A stretch of DNA of 52,483 bases from Chthonomonadales bacterium (GCA_012517255.1 JAAYVH010000247.1:1-52483), one strand, 5' to 3'. Counted from the first letter of the stretch, positions 1-10,044 are shown. Notes: a model not told the origin generated them from the sequence alone. Made by a program: numbers and translations.

Positions 1-323
1 AGCCGCGCCAGTTCGACCGTCTCCCACAGCGACACGTCGGAAGCCAGCCTGATGCCTCCCTTGAACGGACCGCGAGCGTTGTTGTGCAGCCCGAGAACGC
101 CCCACAGTACGATCACCTTGCCTAGAATCTTGCACGGCAGCCTGAACGTGCGGACCTCTTGAGGACTGATCAGCTCCGCAATCGTCGGCCCGTCGAGACC
201 GAGATGGCGACCGGCCCGTTCCATGAACGCCCTGCTTCTGGTCACGGGCTCGCGGCTTGCCACCAGGTTCTCGAGCGTAGATTCGACGGAGCCGTAGGGC
301 TCTCGCGGTGCATCGGGTCTCAT
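1..323 (-). CDS. Glu/Leu/Phe/Val dehydrogenase, N-terminal part (cut by window edge)
   Basis: I translated this directly from the minus strand. The ATG lies at 323-321 and about 107 codons run off the left edge. The frame contains NNARGPFKGGIR, the substrate-binding segment of the glutamate/leucine dehydrogenase dimerisation domain, where the lysine contacts the substrate carboxylate; GGIR continues into a typical LASDVSLWETVELAR helix. The family catalyses NAD(P)-dependent oxidative deamination of an amino acid to a 2-oxoacid. The start overlaps the stop of the GH130-like gene (ATGA), so it is the last visible gene of the minus-strand catabolic operon. A GGGAG-type ribosome site lies about 8 bases upstream. 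Glutamate versus branched-chain specificity cannot be decided from this fragment. Confidence 0.85.
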   Translation of the reverse strand, partial: MRPDAPREPYGSVESTLENLVASREPVTRSRAFMERAGRHLGLDGPTIAELISPQEVRTFRLPCKILGKVIVLWGVLGLHNNARGPFKGGIRLASDVSLWETVELAR

Positions 324-1498
324 GAGGAGTCTCCCTTGGGGGTCGTGCCGGCGGCATGCCGGCTGTCGTTGTTGACCAGCGGACGGTGCGGGCTATCGGT
401 GGACCTGCAAAGCCCCACGGCGCGGCGACCGAAGCCATGGTTCCAGTAGAGGTTCCACGCCCCGTGCCACGGTACGAGTGACCAGGCCTCGTACAGGGGC
501 GCATACCAGAAGACGATCGGAATCCTCTCAAGCTCGGGAACGTTTCCCATGAACGGCGAACTGCTCCGCTTCAGCAGTCGCGTCGGGTCTTCCCGATCGA
601 AGAGCGCCTGGGCCGGATAGTGGGCGTATTGCTTCAGGTCGGATCGTCCGTCACGCCGCCGATCGTCGTTGATCCCGTTGTAGATGAGCAGAATGCCGTC
701 GTCCCGCACAACGGCGGCGACCGTGTCGATGTAGTAGCTGTCGAACCAGCCGGGCCGCAGCGGCATCGGATGCACGAGACCGCCCGAGCGGTCGCGTACG
801 ATCTGCCAGTCCACGAGATTCTCCGACGTGGCGGCGCACAGGCATTCCCGGCCAATGGTGGACAGGCAGTTCAGGTACATCCAATAGCGCCCGCCGATCT
901 TCGTGGCCACCAGCCGGTCGCCCTCAAGGCGGGTCACCACCGCCGGGTGCGGGAAGCGCCAGGGAGCATGCTCGGGAATCACGTCCATGTCCCGCTTGGC
1001 GGCGCGCGCGAATGCCCTGCCATGCACCGACCAGTCCGCAAGGTCCCGGGTCGAGGCGACGGCAAGCTCCTGAGGCTGCGCTGTCACATGCTGGAACATG
1101 TTGAAGTACAGATAGTACGTGCCGTCCTCGGACGCAACCAGTCGTGAGTCGCCGTAGCTCACGCTCAGGCTCGGATCATGCCGTATCAGATCCAGCCACG
1201 GATCGTCGAGACGCGCGTGGAAGACGGGCTGATCGGAGCGCTCAAAACGGATGCCGTCGGAGCTCCACGCCAACCCCATGCGCCACTGGTCATCTTCGCC
1301 ATAGGCGCGGTAGACGGCCACGATTCGCCCATCGTACACAGAGCACGCGGGGCAGTAGGCATCCTGTTCCCACCGGACTCTGCACCCGATCAACGGGTCG
1401 AAGAACGTCTTGTCCGACTCGCCCGGCATCACGGAGATCACGGCATCGTTCACCCGCTCGAACGGTATCTCCCACTCTGGCCTGGGTTGCTCAACCAC
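320..1498 (-). CDS. GH130/GH43-like five-bladed beta-propeller glycosidase or phosphorylase
   Basis: This 392-residue protein starts at a GTG. Its repeated aromatic/Gly segments (YRAYGEDD, GLAWSSDGIRFERSD, GTYYLYFN, TSENLVDWQ) are typical of blades in the GH130/GH43/GH32 propeller families, which act on mannosides, arabinosides or related glycans. The canonical GH130 EDPR segment appears altered to GDSRLVA, so the exact family and the choice between phosphorolysis and hydrolysis are uncertain. There is no signal peptide, so a cytoplasmic location is likely. The gene follows the DUF6785 transporter across a spacer filled with heptamer repeats, and its stop overlaps the start of the dehydrogenase by four bases. 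Its role is presumably breakdown of an imported oligosaccharide. Confidence 0.65.
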   Translation of the reverse strand: MVEQPRPEWEIPFERVNDAVISVMPGESDKTFFDPLIGCRVRWEQDAYCPACSVYDGRIVAVYRAYGEDDQWRMGLAWSSDGIRFERSDQPVFHARLDDPWLDLIRHDPSLSVSYGDSRLVASEDGTYYLYFNMFQHVTAQPQELAVASTRDLADWSVHGRAFARAAKRDMDVIPEHAPWRFPHPAVVTRLEGDRLVATKIGGRYWMYLNCLSTIGRECLCAATSENLVDWQIVRDRSGGLVHPMPLRPGWFDSYYIDTVAAVVRDDGILLIYNGINDDRRRDGRSDLKQYAHYPAQALFDREDPTRLLKRSSSPFMGNVPELERIPIVFWYAPLYEAWSLVPWHGAWNLYWNHGFGRRAVGLCRSTDSPHRPLVNNDSRHAAGTTPKGDSS

Positions 1499-1535
1499 TG
1501 CCGCCCATTCCCTTCATCCCTGTCATCTCCCGCCT

Positions 1536-1660
1536 CTCACCCCTCGCCACTCGCCTCGCCACTCGCCTCGCCTCTCGCCTCTCGCCTCTTGCCTCTTGCC
1601 TCTCGCCTCTTGCCCCTCGCCTCTCGCCTCTCGCCTCTTGCCTCTTGCCCCTCGCCCCTA
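1536..1660. repeat. Heptanucleotide tandem array 1 (CTCGCCT/CTTGCCT)
   Basis: About 17 degenerate copies of a pyrimidine-rich heptamer, plus-strand consensus YTYGCCY (CTCGCCT, CTTGCCT, CTCGCCC), with a few 5-base remnants at the left end. The array fills almost all of the spacer between the DUF6785 transporter and the GH130-like gene and touches the TAG stop of the transporter at 1658-1660. Confidence 0.9.
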
Positions 1661-3613
1661 GTACGGCGACGCCCCTTTCGTCCCGGCAAGGCTAAGCCCG
1701 ATTCCCCACACAAAGTGAGTAACGCAATCCCCGAGAGCGAGCCCGAGGAAGAACGGCACCGACTGGCGATAGGCCCGGAGCCCTCCGAAACGCACGACAA
1801 GCGCCTTGATGAGCCACGTCACGAAGATTACGTTCCACATGCCCCACTCGAGCGCGTAGCTGACTGTGAACAGGTAGCCGATCGGATGTAGCGGAAAGCC
1901 GATCCAGGCACTGCGCGCGTACGTGAGCAGGAGGACTACTCCGGCCGAGACGCCCGCACGCGCCAACGGGCCTGCCTCGAGATCGCGCGCGCTTGCCACC
2001 CAGTTGGTGAAGCGAGACCACGCGTAGCCCGCCAGCCATGTTGAGTCGCCTGTGACGCGCGCCGAGGCGGCCCCACGGTCGTAGAATATCTGCAGCAGCG
2101 TCACCATGCCCAGCGCGATGGAGACGGCGCTCGTTAGCAAGACGATCTTGAGCATCGTCCGTTTGCTGGCGCGCAGCCTGTCGGCAAACACAAACGCCTC
2201 GAGCTGATGACCCATGGGTATCTGCTCGTAGGTACGATCGAACCAGTAGAAGCTCGTCAGCGTCGCGGATTCGGTGCGCGTGAGGCGCGCCGTCCCAACG
2301 AAGTTCGTCGTCCATTCGGTGAAGCTGAAGAACGCCATGCAGAAGAGGGGCATGGCGATCTGGGCGTACATGCGCGTCAGAACGACAATCGCGATGAAGT
2401 ACAGGGCGAAGGCGAGCAGCGACACCGATAGCCTCATCCCTAACAGGAGCCACGAGCCGAGAGCAAGGATCAGGTAGCCCGCCAGCGCTCCGAGCAGCGC
2501 CGTGCGATAGGTCATGGCCTCCTGATCATCTCCGGGAATGGGCTCCCGCCGACGAATGGCCCCCGCCATCTCCCTCAGGAACGACCGCGCGTTCCAGAGG
2601 ATGACGACGAACATACCAAGCCAGGCTCCTTCGGCCGCGTTCGACAGGTACGGGAACTGATCGCCCGCCTGAACCGAGCCTGCATCCCGCCAGCCCAGCA
2701 TGGTTGCGCCAACGGTCATCAGACGGATCAGGACGAAGAAAAACCAGCAACTGAACGAGACTTCGAGCGGGATGAGGTAGCACAGCCCGATGGCCAGTGG
2801 CCACCAGACCATGATCATGGGCGTGAGTGCCATCCACGGCCCGCTCGTCAGATACGGCGTCGCAATGTCGTTCTCTGCCAGTTTGACGCCAGGCACCGCC
2901 GGAACCATCGAGGAAACGTAGTTGAGTGACAGGAGGCCGCATGTTAGCGCGAAGCCCAGCACGAGCAGACGGCTCTGGAACAGGGCGCGCACGTCGCCTT
3001 GCCGCGCCATGGTGACAGGCAGATCAATGATGGGAAACGGCAGACGCTCCTGATCCAGCCAGGGCCGCCTTACGATGGAGGCAAGGCACAGCATCGTCCA
3101 GAGCAGCACGAAGAAGAATGCGCCCCAGAACGCCAGCGGGAGCAGCCAGGGACCCAGAACTCCCGGCCTGAAGAACGCCCAGAAGTCGCGCGTCCCCATG
3201 AAGAAGGCGCTCACCAGCTTGGGATCACGCGGCGCAAGGATCGGCGACATCGAGGCGGCGGTGTCGGGTCCGGCAGCCAGATGCGGCATGTAGGACGGCC
3301 ACAGCACTGTCGGAAACAGATAGTGGAGCAGCTTTACGGAGGTGATGATCGAGCCCATCGTCGTCATGACGAAGACCACCATGAAGTCGGTGGGAGTGAA
3401 GACCCACTGCGGGCGGACCCGCTTCAGGTAGGCGTTCGCCACCATCATCATAAAGAGGATGCCGATGACCGTCTGGACGACGGTGAAGATCGAGGGGGTG
3501 CCGATGTGCCCCAGCGTCAGCTCCTCGTAGATGAGCCACACTGTGTGAACGAGGGTGAGGATCAGCCCGAGAACGACCGCTCGCGCGGTGATCGGAGCGT
3601 AGGACCGGCTCAT
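1658..3613 (-). CDS. DUF6785/DUF6784 family polytopic membrane protein (OPT-like transporter)
   Basis: This 651-residue protein is dominated by hydrophobic segments (about 12-14 predicted helices). It opens with a cytoplasmic MSRSYAPIT segment followed by a long first helix. The conserved-looking loops TPTDFMVVFVMTTMGS and LPFPIIDLPVTMA, and the FPLHPIGY segment near the C-terminus, match my recollection of the DUF6785/DUF6784 proteins common in Armatimonadota, Planctomycetes and Verrucomicrobia. These are related to oligopeptide transporters. The substrate is unknown; context suggests a carbohydrate or amine product of the surrounding catabolic genes. The start overlaps the stop of the secreted paralog upstream (ATGA), so translation is coupled. 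The family call rests on remembered features, not a search. Confidence 0.7.
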   Translation of the reverse strand: MSRSYAPITARAVVLGLILTLVHTVWLIYEELTLGHIGTPSIFTVVQTVIGILFMMMVANAYLKRVRPQWVFTPTDFMVVFVMTTMGSIITSVKLLHYLFPTVLWPSYMPHLAAGPDTAASMSPILAPRDPKLVSAFFMGTRDFWAFFRPGVLGPWLLPLAFWGAFFFVLLWTMLCLASIVRRPWLDQERLPFPIIDLPVTMARQGDVRALFQSRLLVLGFALTCGLLSLNYVSSMVPAVPGVKLAENDIATPYLTSGPWMALTPMIMVWWPLAIGLCYLIPLEVSFSCWFFFVLIRLMTVGATMLGWRDAGSVQAGDQFPYLSNAAEGAWLGMFVVILWNARSFLREMAGAIRRREPIPGDDQEAMTYRTALLGALAGYLILALGSWLLLGMRLSVSLLAFALYFIAIVVLTRMYAQIAMPLFCMAFFSFTEWTTNFVGTARLTRTESATLTSFYWFDRTYEQIPMGHQLEAFVFADRLRASKRTMLKIVLLTSAVSIALGMVTLLQIFYDRGAASARVTGDSTWLAGYAWSRFTNWVASARDLEAGPLARAGVSAGVVLLLTYARSAWIGFPLHPIGYLFTVSYALEWGMWNVIFVTWLIKALVVRFGGLRAYRQSVPFFLGLALGDCVTHFVWGIGLSLAGTKGASPY

Positions 3614-4995
3614 GGGCGTCCCCCGACCGCAGGATCCGCTTCAGGCGCCGCCTCGCGCAACCGCTCGGCCAACCTCTCCAGGAAGCGCTCCGGAGCCTCC
3701 GGAAACGGGAAGCGTGCGTCGGCGCGAGGTCGGACCCGTCGGAGCGCCGCCTGTGCCTCCTTGGAGGTGGAGAGCCTGCAGGCCAGCGGAGCGAGCCGAT
3801 GCTCTGGCGGCAGCTTGCGCTCCCAGTTGCTGAGCCCCTCCACGAACCGAAACACCTGCGAAAGATCGCGCCACGATGCGTCATCCGCGATCAACCGCGC
3901 GTATTCGTCCAGTACCCGCTCCGGCGTTGCTCGAGGATCACGACAGAACCTGCCGAAGGCAAAGGTGTTCAGCGCTTTGGGGAGGTGACCGGCATAGCTC
4001 CAGTTGCCGATGATGCCGTCCACGCCGATGGCGCGCATCTGTGACACGCAGCGGCGGATGTAGCGTGTGTCTATCTGCACACGCGGGCGTTGAACGCCAT
4101 CGGGCCCGACGTCCCCGTCGTCGGCCTCGTCGAGCAGGAAGTAGGGCCATGCCCATATCCGCTTCGCGCCCCGTTCGCGGAGACGCCGTATGTCCGCAGC
4201 ATCAGGGAATGGAGCCGCGGCCAGCCCAGCACGATCCTCAGCGAGAACACGCAGGGCGAGCGGACGATAGTAGGTGTGCCCGGGGATCTGCACGCCGCAG
4301 TCCGGACCGATCAGATCGGGGGCGTCGAATACCTGCCGCGTCAGAAGCTCTTCGCGAATCCACCAGGCCGACGTGAAGCAGCTCATATCCGGGTACTGCC
4401 AGTAGGCAATGGCCCAGGGATTGACGCTGAAGCGCGCACGCGGAGCCTCACGCTTCACGACTCTGCGCACATCTCTGGCCATGGACATCCACTCGGAGGC
4501 TGGGAGCGGACCGAACGGCGCCCGAACGGCTCCCCCGGGATCGCCGGCGACCAGCGTGAAACCGTCTGCCCGGTTCAGAGCGCGAACCGCACGCCTTATG
4601 GCCTCCAGGCGGGCGTTGCGCGCCCTCTCATCCCGCGGGTCGAACAGCACGCCCGTGCCTGTCGGCTCGCGCTCGTCCGGTCCCTCCCACTGGGCGATGT
4701 TCGAGAAGAGGATCACGTCGGTGCGGAAGCCGCTGCGCGCAGCGTTCGCGACGCCATCGGCGAACCGCCGGTAGTAATCCTCCAGCAGGTCCGCCCGAAT
4801 GGACCAATGCGTGTCGCAGAACTGGAGCGTGTTGATGCCGCAGGCCTTCCAGAAGGCGTGCTGACTAGGCGTGTCATGCCACACGTAGAGGCCAACCGTG
4901 CTGAAGGCTGAGGGCTGAGGGCTGAAGGCCGAAGGCGGCGCAGGCGCAGGCGCGGCTCCGGCCAGGGCACAGGCACAAAGGACCACCGCCAGCAT
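3610..4995 (-). CDS. Secreted protein of unknown function, paralog of 4999-6423
   Basis: This 461-residue protein has a short signal-like N-terminus (LAVVLCACALAGAA) and then a Pro/Ser linker derived from a heptamer repeat. The body resembles a TIM-barrel glycosidase-type fold: VGLYVWHDT near the start, a later LQFCDTHW segment, GFTLVAGDPGG in the middle, and IWAWPYFLLDEADDG. It aligns over its full length with its upstream neighbour, sharing the order VG(L/I)YV, FCDT, AGDPGG, (A/G)WPYFL(L/V)DE and the AFGR(F/M)CRDP segment. The two genes are therefore a tandem duplication that has diverged strongly. I recognise no named family. The start lies three bases after the upstream TAG with only a weak ribosome site, so translational coupling is likely. 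Confidence 0.75.
   Translation of the reverse strand: MLAVVLCACALAGAAPAPAPPSAFSPQPSAFSTVGLYVWHDTPSQHAFWKACGINTLQFCDTHWSIRADLLEDYYRRFADGVANAARSGFRTDVILFSNIAQWEGPDEREPTGTGVLFDPRDERARNARLEAIRRAVRALNRADGFTLVAGDPGGAVRAPFGPLPASEWMSMARDVRRVVKREAPRARFSVNPWAIAYWQYPDMSCFTSAWWIREELLTRQVFDAPDLIGPDCGVQIPGHTYYRPLALRVLAEDRAGLAAAPFPDAADIRRLRERGAKRIWAWPYFLLDEADDGDVGPDGVQRPRVQIDTRYIRRCVSQMRAIGVDGIIGNWSYAGHLPKALNTFAFGRFCRDPRATPERVLDEYARLIADDASWRDLSQVFRFVEGLSNWERKLPPEHRLAPLACRLSTSKEAQAALRRVRPRADARFPFPEAPERFLERLAERLREAAPEADPAVGGRP
4897..4937. repeat. Short heptamer array inside the secreted-protein gene (inverted orientation)
   Basis: About five to six copies of GCTGARG lie just after the signal-peptide region and encode the SAFSPQPSAF linker. 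On the plus strand this is purine-rich, so it is inverted relative to arrays 1-3. The same TTCAGCC variant occurs at the right end of array 2. Confidence 0.75.
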
Positions 4996-4998
4996 GCC

Positions 4999-6423
4999 CT
5001 ATGGCTTCTGCGGGCGGTAGTGGGGGCTCGGACCACCAATGTCGCCCGCTGCTATGGTCTCGAGCCGGCGTCTGAGCCGCGGGAGGTACTGCTCCGGCGG
5101 CTCCGGAAGGACGATGCGGGTCAGTTTCCTGGGTACGACCGTCGCCAGAAGGTCCATCGCCGCCTGTGCGGTCGTCAGGTCGCCCGTGTCGAAGTCCCTG
5201 AGCCGGTACTTCTTCGGCAGGCTGTTCTGCCAGTTGCAGTTGTTCTCGATGAAGCGCAGCACACGTCCCAGCGCAGCCTTCGATGAGTCGTCCTCGATGA
5301 TGCCGGCGTACTCATCGAGCGCAGCCCCCGGGGTCAACTTCGGATCGCGGCACATGCGTCCGAACGCGTAGATGTTCAGCGCCTCGGCGGCAACGAACGA
5401 TGCGTTCGCGACGAGCCCGTCAAGCCTCAGGCGCAGCCCATGATCCACGATGGCACGGATGTAGCGGGTCTCGGATCCAGCCTGTCCCTTTGTCACAACG
5501 TTGTTCGGCGTTATGAACCCGTCGTCGCACTCGTCAACCAGGAAATAAGGCCAGCCGTAGACCGGGCTCACCTTGCGGCGGCGCAGCGCCTCTATGTCTG
5601 AGGGCTGCGGAAAGGGCGCGGGCTTGACGCCGGCGTCTGCGTAGGTGGTGAGCGTGAGCGAGCGGTAGTAGTTGTCCATGGAAAAGATGACGCCGCAGTC
5701 GCTGCCGAGGAGATCCGGCTGAGCGATGGCTGCTTGCGACAGTTCCACTTGCTTCTGCCAGAACGTGAGGCTGAACGGCGATGGAAACCCCGCCCATTCG
5801 GCGATGGCCCAGAGGTTCACGGCAAAGCCCGCCTGCGGCGCTTCCTCGCGGACGATGGCGCGGACGCTGCGGGCAAAGGCCGCGCAGTCTGCGATCGTCG
5901 CCTTGCCTTCGGGATCGCCGCCCGGATCGCCCGCGAAGAACTGGAAGCCGTCCGCATGCTTAAGAGCTCGGACAGCCTGACGGACGAACGACAGGCGTTC
6001 CTTCAAGAGCTCGGTGTCCAGAGCCGAGAACGTGCCTGCGTTGCCGGTCGCGTCGGGACCCTTCCACTGCTTCATGCCCGCCAGCAGGAGGATCCAGACC
6101 CTGAATCCCTTCTTCTGGGCATCTGTGACCGCCTTCGCCAGATCGGCATAGTACTCGGGCAAACGATCGGGACGGTGGCCGAACCCCGTATCGCAGAACT
6201 CCAGATAGTTGTAGCCGCACCCCCTGTAAAAGTCGAGATAGTGGGCCTGCTCCGTGGTCGGCGGCTGAACATAGATGCCCACGGTCTGCAGCTCTGGCGC
6301 TTCTCCCATCGCCATGCCTCCTCCAACGCTCTCGCCTACGCAGCGGGCCGATGGCGGCGCTGAAGAGAACGCTGCAAGGCTCCACAGCGCCGCCGCACCG
6401 GCAACGAGCGCAAGCTCCCTCAT
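4999..6423 (-). CDS. Secreted protein of unknown function, paralog of 3610-4995
   Basis: 474 residues from the ATG at 6423-6421. The frame stays open far upstream, but this start overlaps the URO-D stop (ATGA) and gives a proper signal peptide (MRELALVAGAAALWSLAAF). The mature part begins TVGIYVQPPT and carries FCDTGFGHRPDRLPEYY, FFAGDPGGDPEG, a GWPYFLVDECDDG segment and an AFGRMCRDP segment, the same landmarks as the neighbouring paralog. The fold looks like a secreted alpha/beta barrel, possibly a glycoside hydrolase, but no catalytic pair can be assigned with confidence. It sits between the URO-D-family protein and its paralog in the catabolic operon. Confidence 0.78.
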   Translation of the reverse strand: MRELALVAGAAALWSLAAFSSAPPSARCVGESVGGGMAMGEAPELQTVGIYVQPPTTEQAHYLDFYRGCGYNYLEFCDTGFGHRPDRLPEYYADLAKAVTDAQKKGFRVWILLLAGMKQWKGPDATGNAGTFSALDTELLKERLSFVRQAVRALKHADGFQFFAGDPGGDPEGKATIADCAAFARSVRAIVREEAPQAGFAVNLWAIAEWAGFPSPFSLTFWQKQVELSQAAIAQPDLLGSDCGVIFSMDNYYRSLTLTTYADAGVKPAPFPQPSDIEALRRRKVSPVYGWPYFLVDECDDGFITPNNVVTKGQAGSETRYIRAIVDHGLRLRLDGLVANASFVAAEALNIYAFGRMCRDPKLTPGAALDEYAGIIEDDSSKAALGRVLRFIENNCNWQNSLPKKYRLRDFDTGDLTTAQAAMDLLATVVPRKLTRIVLPEPPEQYLPRLRRRLETIAAGDIGGPSPHYRPQKP

Positions 6424-7556
6424 CCGCACGCGTCCACGATTTCGCGCACGCGACATACACGATCGAAGCGAGCATCCGGCGGAACCTGATCGGCAACGCC
6501 GAGCACGAAGCCTGAACCCCGGGGGAACGTGGCGAGCGCTTCTCGAACGAAGTCCTCGAACATGGCATCGGCATAGAGGGGCGAGAACAGCGCTCCCGGC
6601 AGACCTCCCCAGACGATGATCCTGCCCGAAGCCGTCTCGCTGATCTCCTGCAGGCTCATGTCGCCGACCGGTGCAGGCGTGGCCGACTCCACCACATCGA
6701 AGCCTGCCTCGATGAGCAGATCGAGCGAACCGCGCAACGTGCCGTCGTTGTGGATGCCGACCAGTTTGCCGGCATCGTGCAGCTGCTGAATGCGGGTCCG
6801 CCAGTAGGGAAGACAGTAGGTGCGCATGAGCCGCCTTCCGGTGATCTCCGCGGAGAGGTTCTCGGGGAACTCCACGTAGAGGCACGGGCCGTCGGCGATG
6901 ATTGCGAAGATCGGGTCGTCGGCGCGCTCCATGGCGGCGAAGGTGCGTTCCAGCTCCGGGCGCGCCTCAGCCAGCAGCTCCAGCGTCGTCTCCAGACCGG
7001 CGAGCCGCGTGAGGAAGGACTGAAGCGGAGCGGTGCAGACAGGCGATAGGGCGCATGCGAAGCCCTGATCGCCCCAGAGCGCATCGCATCGCGAGAATGC
7101 CTCGTAGTTGGGAGCCACACGCTGATGTTCCGCCATCCAGCGCACAACGGGCAGATCATCCGGCGACTTCACAAAGTGCTCCACATAAGCCCCGGTGCCG
7201 GAATCGGGCAAGTCCCGAATGGCGCTACGCACCTCGCCTACCGGAGTCCTCACGGTCGTGATCGTCAGGCCGTCCTCGACGCTTACCTCCGCCGCGACGG
7301 TCTCGTCGTACGCCTGCTGCCAGATGAACGGGGAGTAGAGATAGACGCCCACGCCGGCTGCCTGATGCATGCGCAGATAGCCCGCTTCGGCATCCGCGAA
7401 CTCGGGAGGGAGGCTGCCGGCGCGCAGGCGGGCCGAGTGCCACCAGCTCAGATCGCCATACCAGGGCGTCCGATCGGGTATGTCGCCCCGCAACACCGCG
7501 AAGACCCGCTCCCGCTCGGTCATGGCGCCCTGCGGCGCCCCCATGGTCGACCCCAT
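6420..7556 (-). CDS. Uroporphyrinogen-decarboxylase (URO-D) family protein
   Basis: This 378-residue protein starts with the TERERVFAVLRGDIPDRTPW opening typical of URO-D-like and corrinoid methyltransferase (MtaA/CmuA) proteins. Later landmarks are GIHNDGTLRGSLDLLIEAGFDVVE and FVLGVADQVPPDARFDRV, which match the metal-site and C-terminal regions of the methyltransferase-like branch. Its place among sugar, creatininase and aminotransferase genes argues against a role in haem synthesis. Such divergent members are common in Armatimonadota and Lentisphaerae catabolic operons, and their reactions are unknown. The first ATG gives a 12-residue leader (MGSTMGAPQGAM); the internal ATG just before TERERV may be the true start. 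Confidence 0.8.
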   Translation of the reverse strand: MGSTMGAPQGAMTERERVFAVLRGDIPDRTPWYGDLSWWHSARLRAGSLPPEFADAEAGYLRMHQAAGVGVYLYSPFIWQQAYDETVAAEVSVEDGLTITTVRTPVGEVRSAIRDLPDSGTGAYVEHFVKSPDDLPVVRWMAEHQRVAPNYEAFSRCDALWGDQGFACALSPVCTAPLQSFLTRLAGLETTLELLAEARPELERTFAAMERADDPIFAIIADGPCLYVEFPENLSAEITGRRLMRTYCLPYWRTRIQQLHDAGKLVGIHNDGTLRGSLDLLIEAGFDVVESATPAPVGDMSLQEISETASGRIIVWGGLPGALFSPLYADAMFEDFVREALATFPRGSGFVLGVADQVPPDARFDRVCRVREIVDACG

Positions 7557-8357
7557 CTATCTGGAGCTCGTCTCGGGCTGGAAGTTCCAGTACTCCTTGA
7601 CGAACCGCACCATATGATCGAGGCACGCCTCGATAAGCACGCGCCCGGTCTCGGCGCTCGATGGCGTCGGATCGCCGAGAAGACCCGTCGTGCTCGGGCT
7701 GTAGTGCCACGTGGACCAGAATACGCGTGTCGAGCCAATGAAGTTGTCGCCCGCGACGAAGTCGGTATGGACATTCACGTGGTCCACGGAGGTGTAGCGA
7801 TCGGTCTTCACGGGATAGCCGTAGTGGAGCATGACGGAGGTCTCGTCCTCGCCGCCGTGGATGCTGCCTCCGGCCGGCCCCTTACGGACGGCGTTGTACT
7901 CCCGCGCTCCGAGATACAGGAAGTTCACAACGGCGGGCGCGATATTGTAATCGTCGGATAGTTCGCGCGCGACCACCCGCAGCAGTTCCGTGTGATGCCC
8001 GTGGCCATTGAGCACCAGTATCTTCCTGAAGCCCATCTCGCACAGGGAGCCGATGATCTGGCGCATCATGTCCATGACCGTGCGAGTCTCCATGCGGATG
8101 GTGCCGGGCCACGCCTGCATAAGCCGCGCAGAGTAGCCGGTCCATATGGCCGGGAGCGTCAGGAAAGGCACGGAACCGTCAGCCGCCAGCCGCTCCCGCA
8201 GATCGTCCATGAACCGCTGGGTGATGAACAGGTCGGTGCCTGTGGGTAGATGCGCCCCATGCTCCTCGATCGTGCCGATGCCCATGATCACCAGAGCGTT
8301 CTGCTCGATGAACGGCTTCAGCTCCTCGGATGTCAGATATTCAAATCGGTGTTCCAT
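7557..8357 (-). CDS. Creatininase-family amidohydrolase
   Basis: 266 residues with the creatininase signature. GTIEEHGAHLPTGTD (about residues 28-42) supplies Glu/His/Asp metal ligands, LNGHGHHTE (about 117-124) supplies the central His, and HGGEDETS (about 167-174) matches the late conserved Glu region. The family hydrolyses cyclic or linear amides (creatinine, formamides, mycofactocin precursor) using a two-metal centre in the cytoplasm. The substrate is unknown here. The stop abuts the URO-D start with no gap. Upstream lies the array-2 spacer. A second family member at 15748-16629 is broken by a stop codon, so this copy may be the only active one nearby. Confidence 0.88.
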   Translation of the reverse strand: MEHRFEYLTSEELKPFIEQNALVIMGIGTIEEHGAHLPTGTDLFITQRFMDDLRERLAADGSVPFLTLPAIWTGYSARLMQAWPGTIRMETRTVMDMMRQIIGSLCEMGFRKILVLNGHGHHTELLRVVARELSDDYNIAPAVVNFLYLGAREYNAVRKGPAGGSIHGGEDETSVMLHYGYPVKTDRYTSVDHVNVHTDFVAGDNFIGSTRVFWSTWHYSPSTTGLLGDPTPSSAETGRVLIEACLDHMVRFVKEYWNFQPETSSR

Positions 8358-8377
8358 ACACTCTCACTCCTCTCACA

Positions 8378-8566
8378 CCCTTCGCCCTTCACCCTTCACC
8401 CCTCAGCCTTCGCCCTTCAGCTTTCGCCCTTCACCCTTCGCCCTTCACCCTTCGCCCTTCACCCTTCACCCTTCGCCCTTCGCCCTTCACCCTTCGCCCT
8501 TCGCCCTTCGCCCTTCACCCTTCACCCTTCGCCCTTCACCCTTCAGCCTTCAGCTCTCAGCCCCAC
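8378..8566. repeat. Heptanucleotide tandem array 2 (TTCGCCC/TTCACCC)
   Basis: Roughly 27 heptamers alternate between TTCGCCC and TTCACCC, with TTCAGCC and CTCAGCC variants at the ends. The array fills the spacer between the creatininase and FGGY kinase genes and runs through the kinase stop codon (8543-8545), so the last kinase residues (LRAEG) are repeat-encoded. It has the same strand orientation as array 1. Confidence 0.92.
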
Positions 8567-9997
8567 AATCCTCGCCACGCCCACCAACCCCGGATGCTCG
8601 ATGCCCGTCGCCTCCACGCGAATGCCGTGACGGCGAGCCAGGAAGTCCAGCCACGCACGGCTTCGGGAGAGGCCGCCGCCGGCAAGCACGCGGCGGGGCC
8701 GGCCCTCTACCACGCTATAGAGCAGCTCGCCGAACCGGGACGAGTAATGCTCCAGCAGACTGCGCACGACATGCGGTGGTCCCATGTCCAGGCGCAGGTT
8801 CTGCAGGTCCATGGCGCCGCCTCCCCTCGGCAGCGCCGCGGGCAGTCGAGCGTCATCCGGCAGAGCCAACGCGTCCTCGATCATGCGTCCGATGCGGCTC
8901 CGCCGGTAGAGGAGCGATGCCAGCCACTCCACCATGTTGCCGCATTCGGACTCCACGCCCAGCAGGTACCACCACGGCATCCCATCGTGCAGGAGCGGAC
9001 TGACCCCGGCGATGTGGTCGTCCCTCGACGGCGTAGCCGGCCTGTCTTTCAGCCCGTAGACGACCAGCGCCGTGCCGAAGTTGGCGAATGCATCCCGGGG
9101 GTCATCCAGTCCGGCTCCCGCCGCGGCGCACGACTGATCGTTGCCGCAGGAGTAGACCGGCACGGGACATTCGAGACCGAGAGCCCGGCACATCGGTGTT
9201 GAGAGCGGCGCCGAAATCGCGGCGGCGTGGGCTATCGGCGCGAGGTTCTCCGACGTGATCCCCGCCAGGGCAAGGGCGCGGTCGTTCCAATAGACGTGCG
9301 GCTTCCCGTGCGCCTCTCGCGGACCGCCCACCGCTCCGAGATCGAGGAAACCGCCCATGGCATGCAGATTCGTATCGCCGAAGGCGGTACCCGTCAGGTT
9401 CAGGGCGATCCACTCGTTGAGGAGGAGGTACCTGACAGATCCGTGGGCTCCATCGCCCGCATAGGCGGTCCTCCGCAGCCGCATGACCTTGGGCAAGAAC
9501 TGCAGCGGACTGGGCCGGACGAACCCGCACGTTGCGGCAAAGTCCGGCAAGGCCTGCGCCGCCTCGTCCGCCTCCTCGGCCGCGCTGGCGTCGGTCCACA
9601 CGACCGCAGGATCAGGCTCCAGCGCTGAGAGCGGAGGGCTGAAGGGCGAGCGCCCCTCGCCTCTTGCCTCTCGCCCCTCGCCTCTCGCCTCTCGCCTCTC
9701 GCCTCTTGCCTCTTGTCCCTCGCCTCTTGCCCCTCGCCTCTCATGCACCGCCACGAACGTCTGCGCCTGCGAGGTCAACCCGATCGCGGTCACGCGAAGC
9801 CCCTGAGCCGCTGCAGAACGCACTGCCCGCCGCAGTGCGCGCACGGCAAGCCGCACGTAGAGCCACGGATCGCATGTCACCCTCTGGCCGTCGCCGTATT
9901 CGAGCTCGTACGATGCAACCGCGACGTCGCCGCATACCCCGTCGGCAGTGACGGGCGCGGCCTTGAATGCCGTCGTGCCGAGATCCAGTGCGATCAC
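8543..9997 (-). CDS. FGGY-family carbohydrate kinase (xylulokinase-like) with repeat-encoded insert
   Basis: 484 residues from a GTG start. The N-terminal ALDLGTTAFKA loop is the FGGY phosphate-binding segment. Later come [34 protein letters not shown] (second-domain ATP loop with the probable catalytic Asp) and LAGGGLSRSRAWLDF near the C-terminus. These proteins phosphorylate pentuloses or similar sugars. Residues about 85-130 are an Arg/Glu/Gly-rich segment (EARGERREARGEG) encoded by heptamer array 3. It lies between FVAV and AVVWTD, where related kinases usually have a short DADG turn. The adjacent D-lyxose-isomerase-like cupin suggests D-xylulose as a possible substrate, which is an inference. 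Confidence 0.85.
   Translation of the reverse strand: MIALDLGTTAFKAAPVTADGVCGDVAVASYELEYGDGQRVTCDPWLYVRLAVRALRRAVRSAAAQGLRVTAIGLTSQAQTFVAVHERRGARGEGQEARGERREARGEGREARGEGRSPFSPPLSALEPDPAVVWTDASAAEEADEAAQALPDFAATCGFVRPSPLQFLPKVMRLRRTAYAGDGAHGSVRYLLLNEWIALNLTGTAFGDTNLHAMGGFLDLGAVGGPREAHGKPHVYWNDRALALAGITSENLAPIAHAAAISAPLSTPMCRALGLECPVPVYSCGNDQSCAAAGAGLDDPRDAFANFGTALVVYGLKDRPATPSRDDHIAGVSPLLHDGMPWWYLLGVESECGNMVEWLASLLYRRSRIGRMIEDALALPDDARLPAALPRGGGAMDLQNLRLDMGPPHVVRSLLEHYSSRFGELLYSVVEGRPRRVLAGGGLSRSRAWLDFLARRHGIRVEATGIEHPGLVGVARIVGLRAEG
9651..9741. repeat. Heptanucleotide array 3 inside the FGGY kinase gene
   Basis: Thirteen heptamers of the CTCGCCT/CTTGCCT/CTCGCCC type sit within the coding frame, in the same orientation and nearly the same sequence as array 1. 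They encode a charged Arg-Glu-Gly linker. The bases just to the left (about 9622-9648) carry the opposite-strand version (GCTGAAG, GGGCGAG), forming an inverted junction. Confidence 0.9.
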
Positions 9998-10044
9998 GCA
10001 AGCGGTCGCTAGACCGGGATCGGATGACGGAGGTCTGACAGGTC

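Follow-up and report, generated by a model that had tools for sequence, protein, structure and literature searches.

The heptamer arrays in this stretch of DNA are probably gene-less relatives, arm-only or minimally paired, of small selfish stem elements that are IVS-like and spread in the spacers between cistrons; we put the probability of this reading at about two in three. A complete element of this kind consists of a purine-rich array of 7- or 8-nucleotide units on the 5' side, a gene of about 120 codons belonging to PF05635/TIGR02436 (S23/IVP, the four-helix-bundle protein of the intervening sequences, IVSs, of 23S rRNA), and an array that is the reverse complement of the first. The window, by which we mean the whole 52,483-nucleotide stretch that was analysed, makes up contig C91 in the 4.77-Mb genome G000 (327 contigs), an Armatimonadota MAG (Chthonomonadales). 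The nearest named relatives are Chthonomonas-type Armatimonadota MAGs, in keeping with the initial annotation, which had judged the host probably not a cyanobacterium.

Heptamer arrays in the window

Using TRF together with a profile search, we found that the window holds four or five arrays:

Array 1, 1531-1659, minus strand: about 18 RARRGGY heptamers (GAGAGGC/AAGAGGC); TRF 1527-1656, profile 1531-1659
Array 2, 8369-8563, minus strand: about 27 GAAGGGC/GAAGGGT heptamers in the kinase/creatininase spacer; TRF 8376-8552, profile 8369-8563
Array 3, 9651-9743, minus strand: about 13 GAGAGGC-type heptamers, in frame inside the FGGY kinase gene; TRF and profile
Short inverted piece, 9624-9650, plus strand: 27 nucleotides abutting array 3; profile
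Array 4, 4900-4936, plus strand: GCTGARG heptamers, antisense to the gene at 3610-4995; TRF and profile

The operon encodes GH130-like, DUF6785/6784, URO-D-like, creatininase, FGGY kinase, cupin and class III aminotransferase proteins. The genes next to or containing arrays 1 to 3 are:

GH130-like gene, 320-1498, minus strand: downstream of array 1
DUF6785/DUF6784 protein gene, 1658-3613, minus strand: upstream of array 1, its stop codon abutting the array
Creatininase family gene, 7557-8357, minus strand: downstream of array 2
FGGY carbohydrate kinase gene, 8543-9997, minus strand: contains array 3 and ends in array 2

Arrays 1 and 2 have the same orientation and share one degenerate unit, as first described, which reads RARRGGY in the mRNA sense. 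The repetition is far above chance, with a best lag-7 identity of 33/35 against a maximum of 24/35 in 20 third-order shuffles. The two arrays fill the only minus-strand intergenic gaps longer than 100 nucleotides, both in the window's first operon, and the 47-nucleotide gap before the kinase (9998-10044) is free of arrays, again as initially reported. Array 1 starts directly 3' of the TAG that ends the DUF6785/6784 gene, and it stops 32 nucleotides short of the next start; the final codons of the kinase, the TGA stop included, are provided by array 2. The initial annotation had confined the arrays to these two spacers. Both are present close to where it placed them, but the count was incomplete, and the confinement to spacers does not hold: array 3 lies inside the kinase ORF, where it is translated as ERRGARGEGQEARGERREARGEGREARGEG and forms a gene-less inverted pair with the piece at 9624-9650, and array 4 lies in the N-terminal coding region of the gene at 3610-4995.

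Distribution in the genome and among genomes

A genome-wide count bore out the proposal of a dispersed family and contradicted the absence elsewhere in the genome that the initial annotation had named as refuting it. The RARRGGY pattern matched 22 + 85 times (107 matches on many contigs) and its reversed control not once, and a GCTGARR variant pattern added further matches. This amounts to about 40 arrays on about 20 contigs (41 by profile in the fetched loci), of which 10 begin within 3 nucleotides of a same-strand stop codon and three more within 25; 18 of the 41 lie inside called ORFs. Stops adjacent to arrays are TAG in about 7 of 10 cases, compared with 36 of 105 called genes, an excess too weak for use.

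Among 101 genomes, nine carry RARRGGY arrays, mainly the window's own, one from the same genus (G001) and one from the same family (G005). All nine also carry PF05635, compared with 42 of 101 overall (p = 2e-4). In G005, a palindromic sequence resembling REP elements adjoins the arrays.

Insertion history at orthologous sites

The operon of G001 is syntenic with the window, with 67-86% nucleotide identity over the aligned pieces. Arrays 1 and 3 are missing from it, as is almost the whole of array 2; the spacer corresponding to array 1 contains AGAGGCGAGATGATG. Array 3 adds about 37 codons to the kinase, and the G001 ortholog reads straight through this point (TFVPVDAESRPVGPAIVWTD). G001 has a mini-array of its own, TGAGAGGCGAGAGGCAAGA, at the stop of another gene of the operon; the window ortholog of that gene stops at 4999, with the sequence TAGGGCATG there.

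Elsewhere in the window's genome, an array lies directly 3' of the TGA stop of the ProRS gene, and two other genomes (G003 and G006) have the same stop without an array; likewise, G001 shares the stop of a cytochrome gene but has no array behind it. Two other genes have arrays at the same stop in both G000 and G001, one of these pairs with different units (GAAGGGC versus GAGTGGC). As judged from these sequence comparisons, the arrays and elements are lineage-specific and often start exactly at the stop codon of the host gene.

A complete element in the same genome

On contig C66 of the window's genome, an array begins at the TAG of an ABC permease gene; after it come a 126-residue ORF and an inverted array, and immediately thereafter an ATPase gene. 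The ORF is the only PF05635 gene in the genome, the window having none. It is assigned to TIGR02436 ('four helix bundle protein'), and among PDB entries XCC0516 matches it best (2GSC, E 3e-26). No relative of this protein was found in phage records. Inverted GAGAGGC arrays form the arms that enclose the gene, and in the predicted fold of the element RNA (-297 kcal/mol, z -5.7) they pair with each other along a long stem. In three other genomes (G008, G010 and G011) the permease stop and the ATPase start lie 1-2 nucleotides apart, GTCTAGC(C)ATG, and it is this junction that the C66 element fills. In G001 and G005 this junction is likewise occupied, by elements whose arms have the unit GAGAGCT.

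Of the 14-mers of array 1, 38 of 77 occur in the arms of the C66 element, and of those of array 3, 34 of 63, against none of 86,841 in the rest of the compared window; none of the 14-mers of these two arrays occurs in the arms of the G001 element. Array 2 has no 14-mer in common with the C66 arms; it is part of a related subfamily, GAAGGGY, with members on contig C190 among other places. Arrays 1 and 2 are single-sided, with no complementary arm, and the hairpin that array 3 forms with its 27-nucleotide partner does not exceed shuffles in stability (z -0.8). The window copies therefore do not show the full set of features that define a complete element, and we class them as arm-type relatives of IVS-like elements rather than as members. 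RNA folding of arrays 1 and 2 singly gave nothing beyond shuffles. Neither the window arrays nor the C66 element are inserted in rRNA; all lie in or between protein-coding genes.

PF05635 loci across phyla

We examined PF05635 loci from other Armatimonadota and from cyanobacterial, Gemmatimonadota and Azospirillum plasmids. A period-7 or period-8 array lies within 150 nucleotides at 31 of 36 PF05635 loci and at 12 of 247 control genes (Fisher 2e-26), and complementary flanks occur at 23 of 36 and 3 of 247, respectively (Fisher 1e-21), some loci being related, so that both values overstate independence. In an enlarged set, 54 of 62 loci have 7-8-nucleotide arrays, complementary flanks or both, and eight have no clear array. 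The units differ widely while the plan is the same: heptamers include GTGGGGA, GAGTGGC, AATTCGG, GGGTATA, AGTCGAA and AAAAGCT, and some loci have 8-mers, such as GGAGGTGA and GGGGTGAA. Left arms are purine-rich in 40 of 46 cases, and the arm starts within 7 nucleotides of the stop of a long ORF in 26 of 56.

Arms match their own partners far better than those of other elements, with a mean complementarity of 20.4 compared with 7.9 (sd 0.4) after permutation, and none of 2000 permutations exceeded 9.5. The orthologous elements of G008/G011 and of G010 carry different 8-mers, each present in both arms, and arm pairing thus appears to be kept while the sequence changes. The four-helix-bundle gene itself has a dN/dS of about 0.11 between G008 and G011, indicating purifying selection. 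To judge by the sequence on either side, one locus (L170) is a 23S rRNA IVS carried on a plasmid, its stem arms built of heptamers; it is the only case inserted in rRNA. Others lie between cas genes (cas6/cas4 and cas10/cmr3). At the level of sequence, the architecture of array, four-helix-bundle gene and inverted array recurs in several phyla.

Alternative explanations

The initial annotation had allowed that the arrays might simply be slippage-expanding elements. Put more fully, this explanation has them growing in place in tight operons from chance seeds where a stop codon meets a Shine-Dalgarno sequence (TGA or TAG and then GAGG), one genome favouring one seed, with the four-helix-bundle gene as a recombined passenger. 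That many arrays begin exactly at stop codons would follow directly, AGAGGCGAGATGATG in the G001 spacer could be a seed or a remnant, and the differing unit variants of orthologous arrays agree with it; yet growth in place leaves unexplained the inverted, mutually complementary arms with element-specific units, the exact filling of 1-2-nucleotide junctions, the 37-codon in-frame insertion in the kinase and the genome-level association with PF05635. We consider plain slippage unlikely. The roles in mRNA stability or termination proposed at the outset may apply, but the unit varies too freely between elements for a sequence-specific role to be general. In all, the initial annotation was right about a dispersed family and a host that is not a cyanobacterium, but overlooked the lineage-specific insertion, the copies in coding regions, the starts at stop codons and the match to the stem arms of an S23/IVP element in the same genome.

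Two further explanations appear much less probable than slippage. G-quadruplexes formed by the G-rich sense strand could tune the neighbouring cistrons, as has been proposed for the GGGNATC repeats of Xanthomonas and Nostoc. The mRNA strand of array 2 does have canonical G3 tracts with 4-nucleotide loops, and the proximity to stop codons agrees with what Rehm et al. 2015 (PMC4692102) describe. Among the window arrays, though, only array 2 has canonical four-G-tract motifs; arrays 1, 3 and 4 each have fewer than four GGG tracts. Units of sister elements such as AAAAGCT, GGATTAA and TCAGAAG have no G tracts, and orthologous spacers in the same genus do without arrays. With canonical motifs in array 2 only and many sister units free of G tracts, we dropped quadruplex formation as a general explanation and regard it as very improbable. 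We would give similarly long odds to MITE or REP sequences that a conventional transposase mobilizes in trans and of which the heptamers are the terminal sequence. Dispersed copies, inverted termini, copies without a gene and the REP-like sequence joined to the G005 arrays all fit; against this, the termini have no fixed sequence, since even orthologous elements have different units, and the two sites compared show no target duplication.

Proposed mechanism and relation to known systems

In the reading that we favour, the arms of a complete element would pair in RNA into a long stem that RNase III would cut, as in rRNA IVSs, so that insertion would be tolerated where a transcript may break, namely in the spacers of an operon. 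Spread may be promoted by the four-helix-bundle protein, either directly or through functions of the host that it recruits. Solo arrays of the window type would be by-products or decayed copies that slippage later lengthened and shortened and that probably have hardly any function themselves. We infer mobility from presence and absence in the sequences compared, since neither a transposase nor a target duplication nor an excision product was seen. The order of events could also be the reverse, with the arrays coming first and the four-helix-bundle gene joining later.

Among the closest known systems are the 23S rRNA IVSs of Leptospira and Coxiella (PF05635, TIGR02436), which likewise have a four-helix-bundle ORF within complementary stem sequences and a sporadic distribution. 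Variable GACAGAT heptamers occur in the Coxiella IVS, which RNase III excises, and rRNA IVSs are excised in this way without religation (PMC4990558). Unlike these, the complete elements described here lie between protein-coding cistrons at stop codons, their arms are longer arrays, gene-less arrays are dispersed throughout the genome, and the window copies have no ORF.

Dispersed heptamers of other bacteria resemble the window arrays from the other side. According to Rehm et al. 2015 (PMC4692102), the G-rich heptamers of Xanthomonas and Nostoc lie between aligned ORFs, near or overlapping stops, and GGGNATC repeats form 70-75 convergent inverted pairs per Xanthomonas genome; a G4 function is proposed for them, and the passages that describe them do not mention S23/IVP. 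X. campestris encodes XCC0516, the best PDB match of the four-helix-bundle protein described above. The unit here is RARRGSY, not GGGNATC or GGGGAYT. The TAACTGA repeats of Beggiatoaceae (PMC4679880) and the cyanobacterial STRRs, a fair parallel already drawn in the initial annotation, are also dispersed intergenic heptamers, some overlapping stops. Both have different units; those of Beggiatoaceae lie mostly upstream of starts, and the host here is one of the Armatimonadota rather than a heterocystous cyanobacterium. Nowhere does the Beggiatoaceae paper (PMC4679880) use 'four helix bundle', 'S23' or 'intervening'. PF05635 genes between cas genes, like those found here, have been described as 23S_rRNA_IVP genes in cas operons and read as a CRISPR-associated function (PMC3936711); the heptamer arms that flank them suggest insertion elements instead.

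In a search of open-access journal articles, no work joining dispersed heptamer arrays with S23/IVP elements was found, and the link appears to be unreported in that literature. To our knowledge, heptamer repeats have been reported from unrelated bacteria for decades without being assigned an origin, and we know of no function for the S23/IVP proteins, including one whose structure is solved and others labelled 'cas-associated'. A broader conjecture is that most dispersed bacterial arrays of 7-8 nucleotides, including the STRRs and the GGGNATC repeats of Xanthomonas, are arms or relics of one IVS-like class inserting at the stops of mRNA genes, with the S23 protein as mobility factor and a stem that is kept by concerted change of the arms and cut by RNase III; we hold this tentatively, as somewhat more doubtful than probable. 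If the repeats and the S23/IVP proteins do belong to one element, the agent that spreads the repeats, the role of the four-helix-bundle protein and the reason for such spacers in operons would become testable together, and interpretations that take PF05635 genes for CRISPR parts, or the repeats for regulatory sites, would be corrected. The same elements may explain the origin of seven-letter repeats in several other bacteria.

Arrays at the same stop codon in two species of one genus (L073, position 6640, versus L282 on contig C98 of the congeneric genome G001) are built of different heptamers, which suggests either that the unit has turned over or that this one site has received insertions more than once. 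At a sugar-transport site of the window's genome, G000 (locus L273, contig C298), nothing more than a short inverted GGGACNN run is present, which may be a minimal element without a gene; the equivalent site in G008, G010 and G011 holds a four-helix-bundle element.

Short heptamer blocks on another G000 contig, C61 (L116, 7305-7500 and 9272-9548), recur every 81 nucleotides, alternating with the sequence GATAAGGTAGGTGG, apparently within repetitive coding sequence. In the same-family genome G005, a repeated palindromic REP-like sequence (GTAGGGGCGATTCATGAATCGCCC) is joined to heptamer arrays, and the resulting composite repeats lie in intergenic clusters (L102, L103, L106 and L107).

In Azospirillum lipoferum 4B, an intervening sequence in a plasmid-borne 23S rRNA gene, as judged by flanking sequence (L170, 1300-2010), contains an S23 open reading frame and heptamer stem arms (GAGGACGGATGACAG). 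On cyanobacterial plasmids, cas operons are interrupted by four-helix-bundle genes whose arms consist of heptamers or 8-mers (L164, L167 and L169), the separated pairs among these loci being cas6/cas4 and cas10/cmr3; a four-helix-bundle gene with such arms likewise sits between ribonucleotide reductase genes (L163). The 'CRISPR-associated' label of the cas-operon genes may be an insertion artefact.
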